Source of the DNA: Thalassobius sp. Cn5-15
Lineage (GTDB): Bacteria > Pseudomonadota > Alphaproteobacteria > Rhodobacterales > Rhodobacteraceae
Reading direction: 5' to 3'
Length of the DNA: 64,000 bases
NCBI RefSeq assembly: GCF_022347685.1
Contig: NZ_JAKRGF010000002.1
Location: 186,001-250,000 of the forward strand
Part shown: in pieces, positions 8,456 to 24,468 of the stretch
Numbering within the stretch: position 1 is the stretch's first letter
Layout of the letters: every line of letters begins with the position of its first letter
Position numbers and translations under genes: made by a program
The notes under the pieces: generated by a model
What the model was told of the DNA's origin: nothing
The model's database searches: none
The model's input: only the letters and a program-made list of their open reading frames with translations

Positions 8456-9619
8456 ATGGGTATTTTCGACTTCCTCACTGGGGAATTCATCGACGTTATT
8501 CACTGGGTTGATGACAGTCGCGACACATTGGTCTGGCGTTTTGAGCGCGAGGGCCATGAAATCAAATATGGCGCCAAACTGACTGTGCGCGAGAGCCAAG
8601 CGGCAGTCTTTGTGCACGAAGGCCAGCTGGCCGATGTGTTCAGCCCTGGGCTCTATATGCTTGAAACCAACAACATGCCGCTGATGACGACGCTGCAGCA
8701 CTGGGACCACGGGTTCAAAAGCCCGTTCAAGTCTGAAATATACTTCGTCAACACCAACCGGTTTACCAATCTGAAATGGGGCACCAAAAACCCCATCATG
8801 CTGCGCGATCCCGAATTTGGCCCGACCCGCATCCGTGCCTTTGGCACCTACACAATCAAAGTGTCTGACCCCGCATTGTTCCTGACAGAGATTGTCGGAA
8901 CCGATGGCGAGTTCACGATGGATGAGGTCAGCTTCCAGATCCGCAACATCATCGTACAGGAATTTTCCCGAGCTATTGCCGCTGCGGGCATTCCGGTGCT
9001 GGATATGGCCGCCAATACGGCCGAAGTTGGCAAGCTGATCGCGCAGGCCATCGATCCGGTTCTGGCGGGGTATGGCCTGTCCATTCCGGAACTTTACATC
9101 GAAAACATCTCCCTGCCGCCCGCAGTGGAAAAGGCGCTGGACGCCCGTACATCCCGCGGCATTGCCGGAAACCTCGACGACCACATGAAATGGAAAGCCG
9201 CCGAGGCAATGGGCAATGGCGGCGCACTGGATCAATCCATGGGGGCCGGCATGGGAATGGGCATGGGCCTGCAGATGGCCCAAGCCATGGGCGCTCAGAT
9301 GTCTCAACCGCAGCGCAGACCTCAAACTGGATCCCAGGCCGGACCATGGGGGGGCGCAGCAGCACAGGCAGCCCCTGCCGCTATGGCTCCACCGCCCCCG
9401 CCCCCTGTGGAGCACGTCTGGCACATCGCTGAAAACGGCCAGACCAAAGGCCCCTTTTCCAAGGCCCAGATGGGCCGCATGGCCCAAACGGGTGAACTAA
9501 AGCGTGAGACCCACGTCTGGACGCCCGGTCAGGACGGCTGGAAAACCGCAGATGAGGTGGCCGAACTGGCGCAGTTGTTCACCGTGATGCCGCCCCCACC
9601 CCCGCCGCCGGGTATGTAA
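8456..9619 (+). CDS. SPFH-domain (virion-core-protein-like) protein with C-terminal GYF_2 domain
   Basis: 387 residues preceded by a strong Shine-Dalgarno, GAAGGAGGG. Residues 1-250 are the SPFH-like domain of the YdjI/virion-core-protein family (starts MGIFDFLTGEFIDVIHW, with LTVRESQAAVFVHEGQL and FGTYTIKVSDP). Next is a Gly/Met- and Gln/Pro-rich linker with GMGMGMGLQMAQAMGAQM. The last 60 residues are a GYF_2 domain (WHIAENGQTKGPFSKAQMGRMAQTGEL), known to bind proline-rich peptides, and the protein ends in proline runs. Such proteins usually occur with a zinc-ribbon protein and TelA, and probably assemble as cytosolic or membrane-associated oligomers. Confidence 0.85.
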   Translation: MGIFDFLTGEFIDVIHWVDDSRDTLVWRFEREGHEIKYGAKLTVRESQAAVFVHEGQLADVFSPGLYMLETNNMPLMTTLQHWDHGFKSPFKSEIYFVNTNRFTNLKWGTKNPIMLRDPEFGPTRIRAFGTYTIKVSDPALFLTEIVGTDGEFTMDEVSFQIRNIIVQEFSRAIAAAGIPVLDMAANTAEVGKLIAQAIDPVLAGYGLSIPELYIENISLPPAVEKALDARTSRGIAGNLDDHMKWKAAEAMGNGGALDQSMGAGMGMGMGLQMAQAMGAQMSQPQRRPQTGSQAGPWGGAAAQAAPAAMAPPPPPPVEHVWHIAENGQTKGPFSKAQMGRMAQTGELKRETHVWTPGQDGWKTADEVAELAQLFTVMPPPPPPPGM

Positions 9620-11050: not shown

Positions 11051-11067
11051 CGCCAGTTGAGCAAAAC

Positions 11068-11097
11068 AAAAGCGCCCTCCGATCCGGGGGCGCTTTT
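11068..11097. terminator. Bidirectional rho-independent terminator
   Basis: Perfect inverted repeat AAAAGCGCCC / GGGCGCTTTT with a 10-base loop. T-runs are present on both strands, so it serves the cupin gene (+) and the CZB protein gene ending at 11129 (-). Confidence 0.88.
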
Positions 11098-11128
11098 CGG
11101 TTGAGAGAGCCGAGTAAGTTTGTGGCGT

Positions 11129-11506
11129 TTACGAAATCTCAACTTTCCAGTGCGACAGTGCCTTGGTCAGAGCCGCAGCTGCGTCGGCGTAGTAGCCAGT
11201 GGCCAGTTCATCAATCGCCGCGTCGAAATTGCCGGTGGCGATCAGCGCAGCCACACCGCAGGCGGCGTCGTGCAGGTCAATGTGCAGCGCGTCAACTTCT
11301 TTGGCGCGGGTGATCATCTGTGCGTTGTCTTTCAGGAAGGAGATCAGTTTACCCAGACCACATTTCTCGGCGTTCTTATAGGCGCGCACCGGCAGGCTGC
11401 GGTTGCCGTCGATGGCAGCGGCGCGCAGCTGATGACCCAGAACGTAATGTGCAACGATGCTGTTGTTGATGATCTCAGCGGTGTTCAGAACGGTCATCTG
11501 GGTCAT
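11129..11506 (-). CDS. Stand-alone CZB (chemoreceptor zinc-binding) domain protein, copy 1
   Basis: 125 residues, all helical. I read it as a CZB domain without any output domain. The candidate zinc ligands are His20, Cys49 (KCGLGK), His75 and His79 (LHIDLH). Their spacing (29, 26, 4) closely follows the H-C-H-H pattern of CZB domains such as that of E. coli DgcZ (about 30, 27, 4). CZB domains normally sit on chemoreceptors or diguanylate cyclases and sense zinc or oxidants through the Cys. Copy 2 (11895-12272) is collinear and about 78% identical by my count. It ends at the bidirectional terminator and has the shared promoter described at 11559-11631. Partners are unknown. Confidence 0.72.
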   Translation of the reverse strand: MTQMTVLNTAEIINNSIVAHYVLGHQLRAAAIDGNRSLPVRAYKNAEKCGLGKLISFLKDNAQMITRAKEVDALHIDLHDAACGVAALIATGNFDAAIDELATGYYADAAAALTKALSHWKVEIS

Positions 11507-11558
11507 GGTGTTTCTCTTTCTCGTTTGTCGCTTATGCGATTGTGTGCTCGTGCTCTCT

Positions 11559-11631
11559 ACAAACGAATATAGATATCCGCCTTTATCGCCTCAATTGAGA
11601 TAAAGTATGGTCCGCCCTCTCGATGGTCCTA
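11559..11631 (-). promoter_or_regulatory. Conserved upstream region of CZB copy 1
   Basis: Read on the minus strand, the order is TAGGACCAT (11631-11623), 13 bases, CATACTTTATCTCA (11609-11596), then TCGTTTGTAG from 11566. The same boxes occur before copy 2 with identical spacing: 22 bases from the start of TAGGACCAT to CATACTT, and 44 from CATACTT to CGTTTGT. The downstream boxes recur before copy 3. A TATATT candidate -10 lies just before the CGTTTGT box. A second CGTTTGT at 11522-11528 faces the ACAAACG at 11559, so the transcript leader could form a stem. The rest of the 388-base gap holds an inverted repeat and the copy 2 terminator. Confidence 0.6.
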
Positions 11632-11721
11632 AGGCGCATAGGCCGTTCCGGCGGGGACGGCGCGGCCTTTTGCCGGATGGTGCTAAAATGCGCCCTCTCG
11701 AACCGCTGGCACGGACCTAGA

Positions 11722-11746
11722 AAGGATATAGTCGCGATATATCCTT
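11722..11746. repeat. 9-bp inverted repeat with 7-base spacer
   Basis: AAGGATATA, spacer GTCGCGA, TATATCCTT: a perfect dyad in the non-coding stretch between CZB copies 1 and 2. There is no T-run, so an operator or RNA stem is more likely than a terminator. No repeat of it was noticed elsewhere in the window. Confidence 0.5.
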
Positions 11747-11835
11747 CGGGAGGTAGAAGGCAGGGAAAATGGGTGGGGGGCGGAGGCCAACAGGCAGATA
11801 ATCTACGCCCCCACACTCCACAAAAAGGCGCACAC

Positions 11836-11865
11836 AAAAAGGCGCCCCGGTGGGTCCGAGGCGCC
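11836..11865 (-). terminator. Rho-independent terminator of CZB copy 2
   Basis: On the minus strand the arms GGCGCCTCGG and CCGGGGCGCC pair across a short loop and are followed by TTTTTGTG, 30 bases after the stop codon of copy 2. Confidence 0.8.
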
Positions 11866-11894
11866 ATAAGAGCAATCGTTACCGTACTAAAGCG

Positions 11895-12272
11895 TTAGAC
11901 GGTTTCCATTTTCCAATATGACAGCGCCTTGGTCAGAGCAGAGGCCGCTGTGGCGTAATAGCCGGTGGCCAGTTCATCAATCGCCTCGTCAAAGTGACCA
12001 GTGGCGATCAGCGCGGCCACGCCACAGGCGGCGTCGTGCAAATCAAGATGCAGTGCGTCGACTTCTTTGGAACGGTCGGTCATCTGGTCGTTTTCCTTCA
12101 GAAAGGCGATCAGTTTGCCCAGACCACATTTCTGCGAATTTCTATAAGCGCGCACCGGCAGGGCCCGGTTTTCCTCATAGGCGGCGGCGCGCAGCTGATG
12201 GCCCAGAACGAAGTGAGCAACGATCGCGTTGTTAATGATCTCGCAAGTGTTGGTGACTGTCTTCTGGGTCAT
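11895..12272 (-). CDS. Stand-alone CZB domain protein, copy 2
   Basis: 125 residues and collinear with copy 1 without gaps; I count about 27 differences. The candidate ligands are conserved at identical positions: His20, Cys49 (KCGLGK), His75 and His79 (LHLDLH). An extra Cys at position 10 is absent from copy 1. It has its own promoter and terminator, so the copies are separate units, not an operon. The near-identity of the core (VDALH, DLHDAACGVAALIATG, IDELATGYYA) suggests recent duplication under purifying selection. The function is presumably sensing or binding zinc or a redox signal, with an unidentified partner. Confidence 0.72.
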   Translation of the reverse strand: MTQKTVTNTCEIINNAIVAHFVLGHQLRAAAYEENRALPVRAYRNSQKCGLGKLIAFLKENDQMTDRSKEVDALHLDLHDAACGVAALIATGHFDEAIDELATGYYATAASALTKALSYWKMETV

Positions 12273-12326
12273 GACGTATCTCTCTCTTGGTTGATCGCGT
12301 AATGCGAATGGTTGCTCTCAATAACT

Positions 12327-12399
12327 ACAAACGACAGTATCACCCCCCATTTTAGGAAGATAATGAGAATAAGTATGACAGGCGCTCTCAATGGTCCTA
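12327..12399 (-). promoter_or_regulatory. Conserved upstream region of CZB copy 2
   Basis: Minus strand: TAGGACCAT (12399-12391), 13 bases, CATACTTATTCTCA (12377-12364), then TCGTTTGTAG from 12334, spacing identical to copy 1. Between them CTAAAATGGGG matches CTAAAAAGGGG at the same offset before copy 3. The boxes could be a promoter plus activator site, or an unusual sigma-factor promoter. Confidence 0.6.
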
Positions 12400-12412
12400 G
12401 CCGGACTAGGAC
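12394..12412. repeat. 7-bp inverted repeat upstream of CZB copy 2
   Basis: GTCCTAG, spacer CCGGA, CTAGGAC, followed by a third half-site GGTCCTAG shortly after. It overlaps the TAGGACCAT box shared with copy 1, so it may be a regulator-binding site. The remaining non-coding stretch, up to the terminator at 12625, shows nothing else I can name. Confidence 0.5.
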
Positions 12413-12624
12413 TTTGGTCCTAGTGATCCGGCTTTGGTCATAAAAAGTGGCGCTCTTTCAGAAGATTGCAGCATTTTTCATGCCAACTCTGCCCGACTGA
12501 CCTGCTCTCAATTTGCGTCCTGTGCCCACCTGCACTCTGACTTTCCTGTCCTCTAAGGACGGATTGAATTGTGGCATCTTTGTGGCGGACACGAGACCAT
12601 TTGTGGCCGCTCATATCGCCATAG

Positions 12625-12656
12625 AAAAAGGCGGCGTCCCCCCGGATCGCCGCCTT
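12625..12656 (-). terminator. Rho-independent terminator of CZB copy 3
   Basis: Minus strand: AAGGCGGCG pairs with CGCCGCCTT across an 11-base loop and is followed by a T-run (TTTTTCTA), about 50 bases after the stop codon of copy 3. Confidence 0.83.
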
Positions 12657-12706
12657 CGTCAAGCAGTCAGTTGTCTGCCCGCCCCTCGCCCCTGAGGGAG
12701 CACAGT

Positions 12707-13129
12707 TTAGGCCGCCAGATCACGCACCTGCCAGCGCACCAGCGCCTGATTCAGTGCGGCGCTGATCTGCGGGAAAGCGCCAGTCGACATCGCTGCGCGG
12801 GCCTCATCGTGTTTGCCTTGTTTCACCATGAACGCCACCTCGGCCGCAGCGATATGCAGGTCCGCGTGCAGGCGGCGTACCTCTGCCAGATATTCAGACT
12901 GTTGCAGAGACAGCGGCAGGTCCATCAGGAAACGGCCAAATTCGCTGACCTCAGCCATGCGCAGCTCTTCAATGGTGACATGGGTGTTCTTGCGGGCTAC
13001 GGCGCGGATCATGCGCTGTTTCCACGCGCCATGCGCTTTCAGCGCGCTTTGCAGTGCAACGTCCAGCCCCAGCAGGGTGGCAGGGGTGGCGTTCTGGTTT
13101 GCTGCGGTCGCGGTCATGTTGGCAGTCAT
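12707..13129 (-). CDS. Diverged CZB-like protein, copy 3, lacking the zinc-ligand cysteine
   Basis: 140 residues. After an N-terminal extension rich in Thr, Ala and Asn it aligns with copies 1 and 2: His33, then the KCGLGK region as VSEFGR with Ser62 in place of Cys, then His88 and His92 (LHADLH). Spacing is again 29, 26, 4, so the fold and three histidines are kept while the cysteine is lost. The C-terminal half (VKQGKHDEARAAMSTGAFPQISAALNQALVRW) follows copy 1. It has the same promoter boxes as its neighbours. It may bind metal without thiol chemistry, or act as a partner or antagonist of copies 1 and 2. The start could also be Met5. Confidence 0.6.
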   Translation of the reverse strand: MTANMTATAANQNATPATLLGLDVALQSALKAHGAWKQRMIRAVARKNTHVTIEELRMAEVSEFGRFLMDLPLSLQQSEYLAEVRRLHADLHIAAAEVAFMVKQGKHDEARAAMSTGAFPQISAALNQALVRWQVRDLAA

Positions 13130-13179
13130 GGCGATGTCCTTCGGCTAAGGTGCTATCTTTTTCTGTGCGTTCAGATGTC

Positions 13180-13229
13180 AAAACGACATAGCCTCTCCCC
13201 TTTTTAGAAAAAAGATGAGAAAAAGTTTG
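13180..13229 (-). promoter_or_regulatory. Conserved upstream region of CZB copy 3
   Basis: Minus strand: CAAACTTTTTCTCA (13229-13216), CTAAAAAGGGG in the middle, then TATGTCGTTTT, with the CGTTT box 44 bases after the first box exactly as in copies 1 and 2. The more distant TAGGACCAT box is not present here. Confidence 0.55.
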
Positions 13230-13264: not shown

Positions 13265-14371
13265 ATGATGGATAACACATTGTCACAACACCATTTTCCC
13301 TGTGATCTCTGCGGGGCGGATTTCCGCTTTGACCCAACGAAAGGCCAACTGATTTGCGATCATTGCGGCAATGAGGGCGAAGTTCGGCAGAAAAACCCAT
13401 GGGCCGGCGGTATCCGCGAACTGGATTTTCAACAAGCGTTGGAGAATTTGCTGCCTGCACAAGCGATGGAGGAAACACGCGTTAGCGAATGCCCCAGCTG
13501 CGGCGCGCAAGTGGAAATGGATGGTGCCACTCATGCAGCAGAATGCCCTTTCTGTGCGACGCCCGTGGTGACCGGCACCGGCACACACCGCCACATCAAA
13601 CCGCGCGGCGTCCTGCCCTTTGCCCTGCAGGAACGCGATGCGCATGAGGCGATGAGCGCTTGGCTGGGCCGCCTGTGGTTTGCGCCGAACGGTTTGCAGG
13701 ACTACGCTCGCAAGGGCCGCAAGATGGAAGGCATTTATGTCCCCTACTGGACCTTTGATGCCCAGACAGACAGCCGCTATCGCGGTCAGCGTGGCACGGT
13801 TTACTATGAAACCCGCAGCGTCATGCGCGATGGCGAGATGAAGCAGGAACGGGTGCAAAAAATCCGCTGGCGCAATGTGTCAGGCCGTGTGGCGCGATTC
13901 TTTGATGATGTGCTGGTGCTGGCATCAAACGCGCTGCCGAAACGCTACACCGATGCGTTGGAGCCGTGGGACTTAGCCGCGATGGAGCCTTATCAACCTG
14001 AATACCTCGCCGGTTTTCGGGCAGAGGCTTACACGGTTGAGTTGACCGATGGCTTTAACGAGGCGCGCGAGCATATGGATCAGGTGATCCGCCGCGACGT
14101 GCGTTTCGACATCGGCGGGGATCGCCAACGTATCAGCGACGTGGAAACAGCGATCCGTGACGTGACCTTCAAACATGTTCTGCTGCCGGTCTGGGTCGCA
14201 GCCTATAAATATCGCGGTGAGAGCTACCGGTTTGTGGTCAACGGTCGCACCGGTCGTGTTCAGGGCGAACGCCCGTGGTCGAAATGGAAGATCGCGCTGG
14301 CAGCGCTTGCCGGTCTGATTGTGGCGGGTGGCATCGGCTATGCCATTGCGGTGAGCGAGGGCAAACTGTGA
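13265..14371 (+). CDS. Zinc-ribbon membrane protein of the TelA/SPFH module
   Basis: 368 residues. The N-terminus holds CxxC pairs of two zinc ribbons: CDLCGADF...CDHCGN and CPSCGAQV...CPFCATP. The middle carries IYVPYWTFDAQTDSRYRGQRG and VLVLASNALP, known from proteins loosely annotated as primosomal protein N' (replication factor Y)-like. No helicase motif is present, so that name is misleading. A single C-terminal membrane helix (KIALAALAGLIVAGGIGYAIAV) is followed by a short charged tail. Such proteins usually neighbour the SPFH/GYF protein found at 8456-9619. I start at the first of two adjacent ATGs; the second, at 13268, is equally possible. Confidence 0.8.
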   Translation: MMDNTLSQHHFPCDLCGADFRFDPTKGQLICDHCGNEGEVRQKNPWAGGIRELDFQQALENLLPAQAMEETRVSECPSCGAQVEMDGATHAAECPFCATPVVTGTGTHRHIKPRGVLPFALQERDAHEAMSAWLGRLWFAPNGLQDYARKGRKMEGIYVPYWTFDAQTDSRYRGQRGTVYYETRSVMRDGEMKQERVQKIRWRNVSGRVARFFDDVLVLASNALPKRYTDALEPWDLAAMEPYQPEYLAGFRAEAYTVELTDGFNEAREHMDQVIRRDVRFDIGGDRQRISDVETAIRDVTFKHVLLPVWVAAYKYRGESYRFVVNGRTGRVQGERPWSKWKIALAALAGLIVAGGIGYAIAVSEGKL

Positions 14372-23064: not shown

Positions 23065-24468
23065 ATGCGTTCAATTAAACTGCACACCACGGCCCTGGCC
23101 CTGATCGCAATGACCGCCACCGGCGCTGCCGCGGCCGATGTGTACGGCCCCTTCCCCGTCACACTGAAAGGCTATGAAGGCGAGAAAACCAACTCTGTCT
23201 CCTATTCGGGTCAAATCGCCCGCCATGCGCTGCATGACAGCCTGAAAAAGGCCGCTGCTCTGGGCAACGGTGGTGCAAACGCCGCCGAAGTTGAAGCGCT
23301 GATGCTGTCCTACTTCAACGGTTCCGACGCCGATCTGGACATTCTGGCGCCGAAGTCCAAAGACGGCTTCCCGATCAAACAGACCACCGTGAACGCCATC
23401 TCCAAGGGCAAAAACATCTCGGGCAAGTTCTACAAGGGCGCAATGCCCGCATGGCCCGGCAACGGCACCGGCAAAGACGCCGTGATGCACATGATCAAAA
23501 TGGCCGCCAAGGCGGACAAAGGTTTTGACGCTGAAAACGGCTATGACTGGGGTCAGGTGATTTCCAAATTCACCATGGGCGCAATGATGTACAACCAGTC
23601 GGTTGACAACTATCTGGACGAAAAGCTGGCCGCTGACAACAAACCGAACGACAAGCCCTACAAAGACGGCGCCTACTACACCGGCAAAGAGCACAGCTGG
23701 GACGAAGGTTTTGGCTACTGGGGCGCCCCTGCACACGCGATGAGCCTGACTCCGCAGCAAGCCTACGCCATTGCCAAAGGCAAGGATCTGGCAGCAGCGG
23801 ACGCCAACGGCGACGGCATGGTTGACCTGAAAACCGAATACGTCTTTGGCCCGGCCTACTACGCCGCTGGCGCCGACAAAGGCGGCACCAAGTCGACCAA
23901 CTACATGCACACCATCATGCAGGCTTTCATTGACGGCCGTCAGGTGATCGCAGACGCCAAAGGCGAAGCGCTGTCCGATGAGGCCCGCGCCCAGTTGAAA
24001 GCGCACGCCGCCACCATCGAAAGCAACTGGGAAAAAGTGCTGGCCGAAGCCGCGTTCAAATATGCCGGTTCGGTTTACAAAGACATCAACAAGATGGCTG
24101 AGGCCGAAGGCGAAGAGAAAGCAAAAGCCTACCGCGCCTACGTCAAGCACTGGGGTGAGCTGAAAGGCTTCGCCATGGCGCTGCAATCGGGCCGCAACAA
24201 CCTGGGCGCCACCGCGGTTGAGCTGAACAACCTCGTAGGCTTTGGTCCTGTAACCATGGACAACTCTTACGTCACCGGCATCGACGCAGACGGTAACTTC
24301 GTCCGTGATCGTCGCATGACCTGGAACGACTACCAGCTGAACATGCTGAAAACCCAGGAACTGCTGAAAGGCAAGTTCGGCCTGAAATCTCTGGCCAACG
24401 ATCAGCTGGCGCAACTGGAAGGTCTGGCCGACAAGATGAAGGCCGAGGCAAGCGCCGAAACCGACTAA
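23065..24468 (+). CDS. Secreted DUF4856-domain protein
   Basis: 467 residues with a classical signal peptide (MRSIKLHTTALALIAMTATGAAAA, cleavage likely after AAA). The mature protein has the DUF4856 signatures VSYSGQIARHALHDSLK, HSWDEGFGYWGAP and YMHTIMQAFIDGRQVI, related to imelysin-like iron-regulated periplasmic proteins. An EF-hand/dockerin-like loop, DANGDGMVDLKT, starts at residue 246, but position 12 is Thr and the Glu comes one residue later. The strong promoter, good Shine-Dalgarno (GAGAGGAAAC) and terminator suggest high expression. Homologues are often linked to metal uptake or cell-surface proteins; the function is not established. Confidence 0.8.
   Translation: MRSIKLHTTALALIAMTATGAAAADVYGPFPVTLKGYEGEKTNSVSYSGQIARHALHDSLKKAAALGNGGANAAEVEALMLSYFNGSDADLDILAPKSKDGFPIKQTTVNAISKGKNISGKFYKGAMPAWPGNGTGKDAVMHMIKMAAKADKGFDAENGYDWGQVISKFTMGAMMYNQSVDNYLDEKLAADNKPNDKPYKDGAYYTGKEHSWDEGFGYWGAPAHAMSLTPQQAYAIAKGKDLAAADANGDGMVDLKTEYVFGPAYYAAGADKGGTKSTNYMHTIMQAFIDGRQVIADAKGEALSDEARAQLKAHAATIESNWEKVLAEAAFKYAGSVYKDINKMAEAEGEEKAKAYRAYVKHWGELKGFAMALQSGRNNLGATAVELNNLVGFGPVTMDNSYVTGIDADGNFVRDRRMTWNDYQLNMLKTQELLKGKFGLKSLANDQLAQLEGLADKMKAEASAETD

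Follow-up and report, generated by a model that had tools for sequence, protein, structure and literature searches.

The window (the whole 64,000-nucleotide stretch of DNA that was analyzed) encodes three adjacent stand-alone proteins of the CZB type, here designated c1, c2, and c3. All three are under purifying selection, and their genes lie antisense in a slot within a conserved gene cluster that encodes TelA, SPFH-GYF, and zinc ribbon proteins. We propose, giving this reading slightly less than an even chance, that c1 to c3 are cytosolic, CZB-derived zinc-binding partners of the TelA/SPFH membrane stress system, among which c1 would be abundant and c3 would be the thiol-free member. The sequence-only reading of this DNA described the three proteins and overlooked their conserved TelA/SPFH/zinc ribbon location as well as two features of c1, its dispersed copies and its codon usage.

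Three stand-alone CZB-type proteins

The genes for c1 (positions 11129 to 11506) and c2 (11895 to 12272), both on the minus strand, encode proteins of 125 amino acids each, with the predicted ligands H20, C49, H75, and H79 (an HCHH set). The product of c3 (12707 to 13129, minus strand) is 140 amino acids long and has H33, S62, H88, and H92 in the equivalent positions. The sequence-only reading had described three adjacent stand-alone open reading frames (ORFs), two of them about 78% identical, with a common H-(29)-C/S-(26)-H-(4)-H pattern and with Ser62 of the third, thiol-free copy in place of Cys49. All of this was borne out: the computed identity of c1 and c2 is 78% (that of c3 and c1 is 29%), the ligand offsets are 29, 26, and 4 in each protein, alignment places S62 of c3 against C49, and the c3 translation contains no cysteine at all. 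Comparison with the orthologues from T. mediterranea (genome G076, taken as strain CECT 5383) gives dN/dS values of 0.04 for c1, 0.05 for c2, and 0.09 for c3, which marks each of them, even the Ser form, as a working gene. Between the two species, dS is low for c1 (0.18) and amounts to 0.76 for c2 and 0.73 for c3.

Taken singly, c1, c2, and c3 score 18.3, 14.9, and 16.9 bits against the CZB profile PF13682, all under the curated Pfam cut-off of 29.4, so their assignment to CZB rests on the wider family and on structural models. In an alignment of stand-alone relatives, 22 of 23 match PF13682 (best E value, 1.1e-12), and the profile of these relatives matches the CZB structure of DgcZ (PDB ID 3t9o) with an E value of 1.5e-8. 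The earlier assignment to PF13682 thus stands for the relatives and misses the cut-off for each protein alone. Structure prediction agrees with the four-helix bundle that had been expected of the monomers. The AlphaFold2 model of c1 (pLDDT, 90.5) forms such a bundle and has 3t9o_B as its top match among the PDB chains compared (Z score, 13.0; root mean square deviation [rmsd], 2.5 Å; 115 aligned residues). The c3 model (pLDDT, 83.2), again a four-helix bundle, has the same top match (Z score by VIA-align, 12.7; rmsd, 2.6 Å; 115 to 116 residues), and Foldseek places 3t9o_B first and 3t9o_A second for it. The sensor domains of PcaY and MCP2201 reach Z scores of 11.8 to 12.4 with the c1 and c3 models, against 12.7 to 13.0 for DgcZ; with other four-helix sensor bundles within about 1 Z unit, the fold alone is not decisive, and sequence and ligands decide. 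Foldseek by itself was discarded as a test for CZB, as MCP2201 and 3t9o both gave E values of 0.09 to 0.12 and CZB was not separable from other four-helix bundles.

On sequence evidence, c1 and c2 are a divergent branch of the CZB family: they carry the set of three His and one Cys at CZB spacing, the c1 model has the four-helix-bundle fold, and their single-sequence scores fall under the Pfam cut-off. c3 shares the fold and is referred to as CZB-derived, rather than as a full member, because the defining ligand cysteine is absent (Ser62). None of the three proteins has an output domain, as had been noted earlier; the accompanying view that this is unusual for CZB did not hold, since CZB-only proteins make up 27.1% of 10,140 CZB sequences (PMC8262984) and, as an already known class, show that the stand-alone architecture is not new. 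The idea that c1 to c3 were cut from a CZB receptor encoded elsewhere in the genome was rejected, as there is no CZB receptor over the family cut-off.

Loss of the ligand cysteine

The HCHH set is kept in 38 of 46 relatives, c1 and c2 among them. The Ser form constitutes a single long-branched clade (1.47) with representatives in four species; in the tree, this clade joins (93/72 support) a canonical Cys-bearing neighbor found in T. autumnalis (G297, taken as strain CECT 5118) and in G301. This Cys-bearing neighbor is absent from the present genome and from T. mediterranea. Judging from the tree, the Ser form probably arose by duplication of the Cys-bearing neighbor. A relative of c1 and c2 in G296 has Thr at the Cys position, both the Cys and the last His are lost in G215, and the G096 copy is a pseudogene; together with the Ser clade, these cases indicate repeated loss of the thiol among the occupants of this slot. 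In DgcZ, the Cys is the oxidant-sensitive ligand and confers an approximately tenfold higher affinity for zinc (PMC8262984). c3 may thus still bind zinc through its three His residues, more weakly and with no thiol switch.

The SPFH-GYF/zinc ribbon slot

The conserved cluster begins with a gene for an XpaC-type protein (PF10112; 5244 to 6143), which is followed by genes for TelA (PF05816; 6211 to 7401), a DUF2927 protein (PF11150; 7410 to 8384), and a YdjI-like protein that combines SPFH (Band_7_1) and GYF_2 domains (8456 to 9619), all on the plus strand. Then come DinB-family, AsnC-type, and cupin genes, the antisense c3-c1 group, and, on the plus strand and divergent from c3, the gene for a zinc ribbon protein (13265 to 14371; weak zinc ribbon matches), which forms the other edge of the CZB slot. 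The CZB genes run antisense to the cluster and are outside the operon.

CZB genes in antisense orientation between the SPFH-GYF and zinc ribbon genes were found in five Thalassovita-type clusters and in ten genomes from other genera, in two of which the CZB gene is decayed or fragmentary (genes in the compared loci were called by ORF picking, not by a gene finder). The suggestion that other roseobacters would have the same set was confirmed, with 3 or 4 tandem CZB genes in each of five Thalassovita genomes, this one counted (3 in T. mediterranea, 4 in T. autumnalis, 4 in G301, and 3 in G296). The genomes from other genera are G162, G080, G385, G027, G153, G382, G338, and G215, along with the decayed G096 (internal stops) and G218 (a fragment); the CZB proteins of G080 and G385 are identical. 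The clustering of labels in the tree of CZB relatives also speaks for the association with this slot.

The zinc ribbon gene is present in 105 of 120 genomes and CZB in only 24 of 395. Elsewhere (loci L133 to L162), the gap may be empty (about 100 bp) or contain a member of a family of secreted antisense ORFs of about 190 amino acids, a phosphatase-like ORF, CZB, or other genes; some gap ORFs of other Rhodobacteraceae, named by eye, are presumably cytochrome b561-like. As a minority occupant of the slot, CZB has a conserved but optional link to the cluster, and the cluster does not need CZB, given that the gap in other genomes is empty or filled by other ORFs. The neighborhood may also reflect shared ancestry instead of function. 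A search for weak CZB-like genes hidden in the gap of other genomes ended with gap ORFs that belong to unrelated families.

A second CZB-only family is present in five genomes (L074, L076, L077, L079, and L127), where one flank is a PolIV (IMS-family) gene and the other is what we take to be an N-formylglutamate amidohydrolase-like gene; in all but one of these genomes, genes of the stomatin/NfeD type follow on the far side of PolIV. CZB matches are also seen within open frames of 883 codons in G396 (L125:4499-7147) and of 680 or more codons in G443 (L165), which could be fusions or frame artefacts.

Dispersed copies of the c1 unit

The c1 gene is part of a transcription unit of about 725 bp (11051 to 11778, minus strand) that comprises c1, its upstream region, and a terminator. 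Further copies, 98% identical, are found at C9:223869-224595 and C9:278099-278823 of the same genome, between unrelated genes that we take, by eye, to be MmgE/PrpD-like and bactofilin-like in one case and rpiB-like and amt-like in the other. The earlier description of a set of three is therefore right for this locus and too small for the genome, where c1 has two more copies. The unit is closed by a terminator-like hairpin with a T run (11068 to 11097, minus strand), read from the sequence and conserved in all copies; an inverted repeat of the AAGGATATAxxxxxxTATATCCTT type (11722 to 11746), recognized from the sequence and the copy alignment, lies near its far upstream end.

T. mediterranea has at least four c1 copies: besides the one in the cluster, there is one in the interior of a different contig, and others lie at the ends of contigs. 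In T. autumnalis, the cluster is the sole site at which c1 was detected. Two c1-copy sites have flanks common to this genome and T. mediterranea. Within the 270 bp upstream of c1, the copies are 98.5 to 99.6% identical within this genome, 94.8 to 96.7% identical within T. mediterranea, and 84 to 86% identical between the species. Because this region is more alike within than between species despite the shared flanks, the c1 copies evolve in concert, and their likeness within species is best explained, on these alignments, by gene conversion. In T. mediterranea, one copy has the left-hand neighborhood of one of these sites and the right-hand neighborhood of the second, so that, unless the assembly is faulty, c1 copies have also served as recombination points. 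The order of flanks around c1 units differs between contigs C2, C5, C9, and C14 of T. mediterranea and contig C9 of this genome, as if the chromosome had been rearranged by recombination between copies. Another T. mediterranea copy lies beside a presumed tkt gene; the present genome lacks this copy and has a different 2.3-kb ORF region in its place.

Transposition of the c1 unit by a Y1 transposase (an IS200/IS605-type or REP-associated element) was considered and rejected, as PF01797 is absent from four Thalassovita genomes. Plasmid carriage of c1 was likewise dismissed, with zero tblastn matches in 72,556 plasmids.

Codon usage and upstream boxes

The codon adaptation index (CAI), calculated with twelve ribosomal protein genes of this genome as the reference and 298 ORFs from about 0.4 Mb of genome stretches as the background, is 0.76 for c1, higher than for 296 of the 298 background ORFs, and 0.72 for its dispersed copies. 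Ribosomal proteins give leave-one-out values of 0.60 to 0.85. The values for c2 (0.58) and c3 (0.64) are lower than that for c1, yet in about the top tenth; those for the SPFH and zinc ribbon genes are ordinary. On the same scale, c1 of T. autumnalis reaches 0.90. c1 is thus predicted to be abundant, an estimate that is noisy at 125 codons but clear in sign, and its codon usage at the level of ribosomal proteins points to an abundant protein instead of a scarce sensor. The top CAI of the sample, 0.77, belongs to a likely secreted protein encoded at 23065 to 24465 on the plus strand. Two near-identical 365-amino-acid ORFs lie in tandem within a ribosomal protein gene cluster on contig C10 of this genome (L192:15127-17491).

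The box TAGGACCATNGAGAG is found upstream of c1 (11617 to 11631) and of c2 (12385 to 12399), both on the minus strand, with 0.2 occurrences expected by chance in the window; in 202 loci, it occurs only upstream of c1/c2-type genes. A promoter-like box, CTAAAA-N14-GTCGTTT, is common to c2 (12327 to 12355) and c3 (13179 to 13207), again on the minus strand (2 found by motif search and alignments, 0 expected). The possibility that the shared promoter box is sigma-28-like was abandoned, as only about half of the −10 positions fit and the c1 spacing differs. No known structured RNA could be assigned in the region, all Rfam matches being sub-threshold. One of these, to ncS54 (29.7 of 43 bits; E value, 0.0004), covers the c2 terminator (11834 to 11902, minus strand).

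Proposed function and alternatives

In the proposed scheme, c1 and c2 would bind zinc at the CZB site, dimerize like the CZB domain of DgcZ, and partner the membrane-associated SPFH/TelA/zinc ribbon machinery in a manner that depends on zinc or oxidants. c1 would be made in large amounts, with the extra copies raising its dosage. The paralogue c3, which would bind metal more weakly and lack a thiol switch, would serve as a constitutive or inhibitory partner. It is possible, if somewhat unlikely, that CZB-only proteins are metal- and oxidant-responsive subunits of this membrane stress machinery, with a dosage-amplified, abundant Cys form and a dedicated Cys-free partner by which the off-state of mixed dimers is determined.

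The high codon adaptation of c1 and its extra copies would also suit a plentiful intracellular protein that buffers or stores zinc, for which dosage matters, partners do not, and the adjacency to telA is historical; the very tight binding of zinc by the DgcZ CZB site (PMC8262984) is consistent with such a role. However, one metal per 125 residues makes a poor store, the same chromosomal slot recurs in many genera, and a Cys-free paralogue is kept under selection, and we consider storage unlikely. The spread of c1 could instead be selfish, as cargo of a small mobile element: the unit has the same boundaries in unrelated intergenic sites and hairpins near both ends, and the copy at the tkt site of T. 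mediterranea is missing from this genome. This we find improbable, as the copy alignment reveals no terminal repeats or target duplications, four genomes contain no Y1 transposase, and codon bias is equally high in T. autumnalis, in which no c1 copy was detected outside the cluster.

All characterized CZB domains regulate diguanylate cyclases or chemoreceptors, and c3 weakly matches a DgcZ-type NCBIfam model (30.6 of 256 bits), as might be expected if c1 to c3 were trans-acting partners of such proteins that replace the missing covalent output domain. Against this highly doubtful assignment, the genome encodes no combination of CZB with an output domain at the family cut-off, and none of the examined loci has a gene for a cyclase or chemoreceptor next to it. 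That the three proteins are functionless, decaying relics of a chemoreceptor domain, a reading already disfavored, would accord with the internal stops and the fragment seen in two other genera, but it can hardly be reconciled with the dN/dS range of 0.04 to 0.09 and with ligands conserved in all Thalassovita copies.

CZB-only proteins, which account for over one-quarter of the CZB family, have no assigned role in the cited CZB literature; the location in the TelA/SPFH cluster offers a first lead on their function. The fixed TelA/SPFH/zinc ribbon neighborhood, the strong predicted expression, and the natural Cys-to-Ser paralogue make this a testable hypothesis. The same paralogue provides a built-in control for the debate on whether oxidant sensing by CZB relies on the Cys or on the supply of zinc (PMC13370339).

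Comparison with known systems

c1 to c3 resemble the CZB domain of Escherichia coli DgcZ (PDB IDs 3t9o and 4h54; PF13682) in the four-helix bundle, the His/Cys/His/His spacing, and the CxxG-type motif. Unlike DgcZ, they lack a GGDEF output domain, c1 and c2 have no Trp after the first His, and c3 has no Cys. They share the single-domain architecture of other CZB-only proteins (PMC8262984) and differ from these in forming tandem paralogues in a fixed slot beside TelA/SPFH, in the dispersed copies of one paralogue, and in the conserved Cys-free form. In Bacillus subtilis, YdjI, an SPFH protein, links PspA to the membrane together with the zinc ribbon/TPM membrane proteins YdjG and YdjH (PMC8581546, PMC11237479). 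No CZB protein is described for that system, and a survey of Psp systems (PMC11237479) mentions neither CZB nor TelA. Among the genes scanned in the present cluster, none encodes PspA. The present cluster resembles pspA-ydjGHI in combining SPFH (as in YdjI) and zinc ribbon (as in YdjG) proteins in one neighborhood; it differs in the presence of XpaC, TelA, and DUF2927. By analogy, the YdjI/YdjG/YdjH/PspA complex (PMC8581546) serves as the model for the action of SPFH and zinc ribbon proteins at the membrane.
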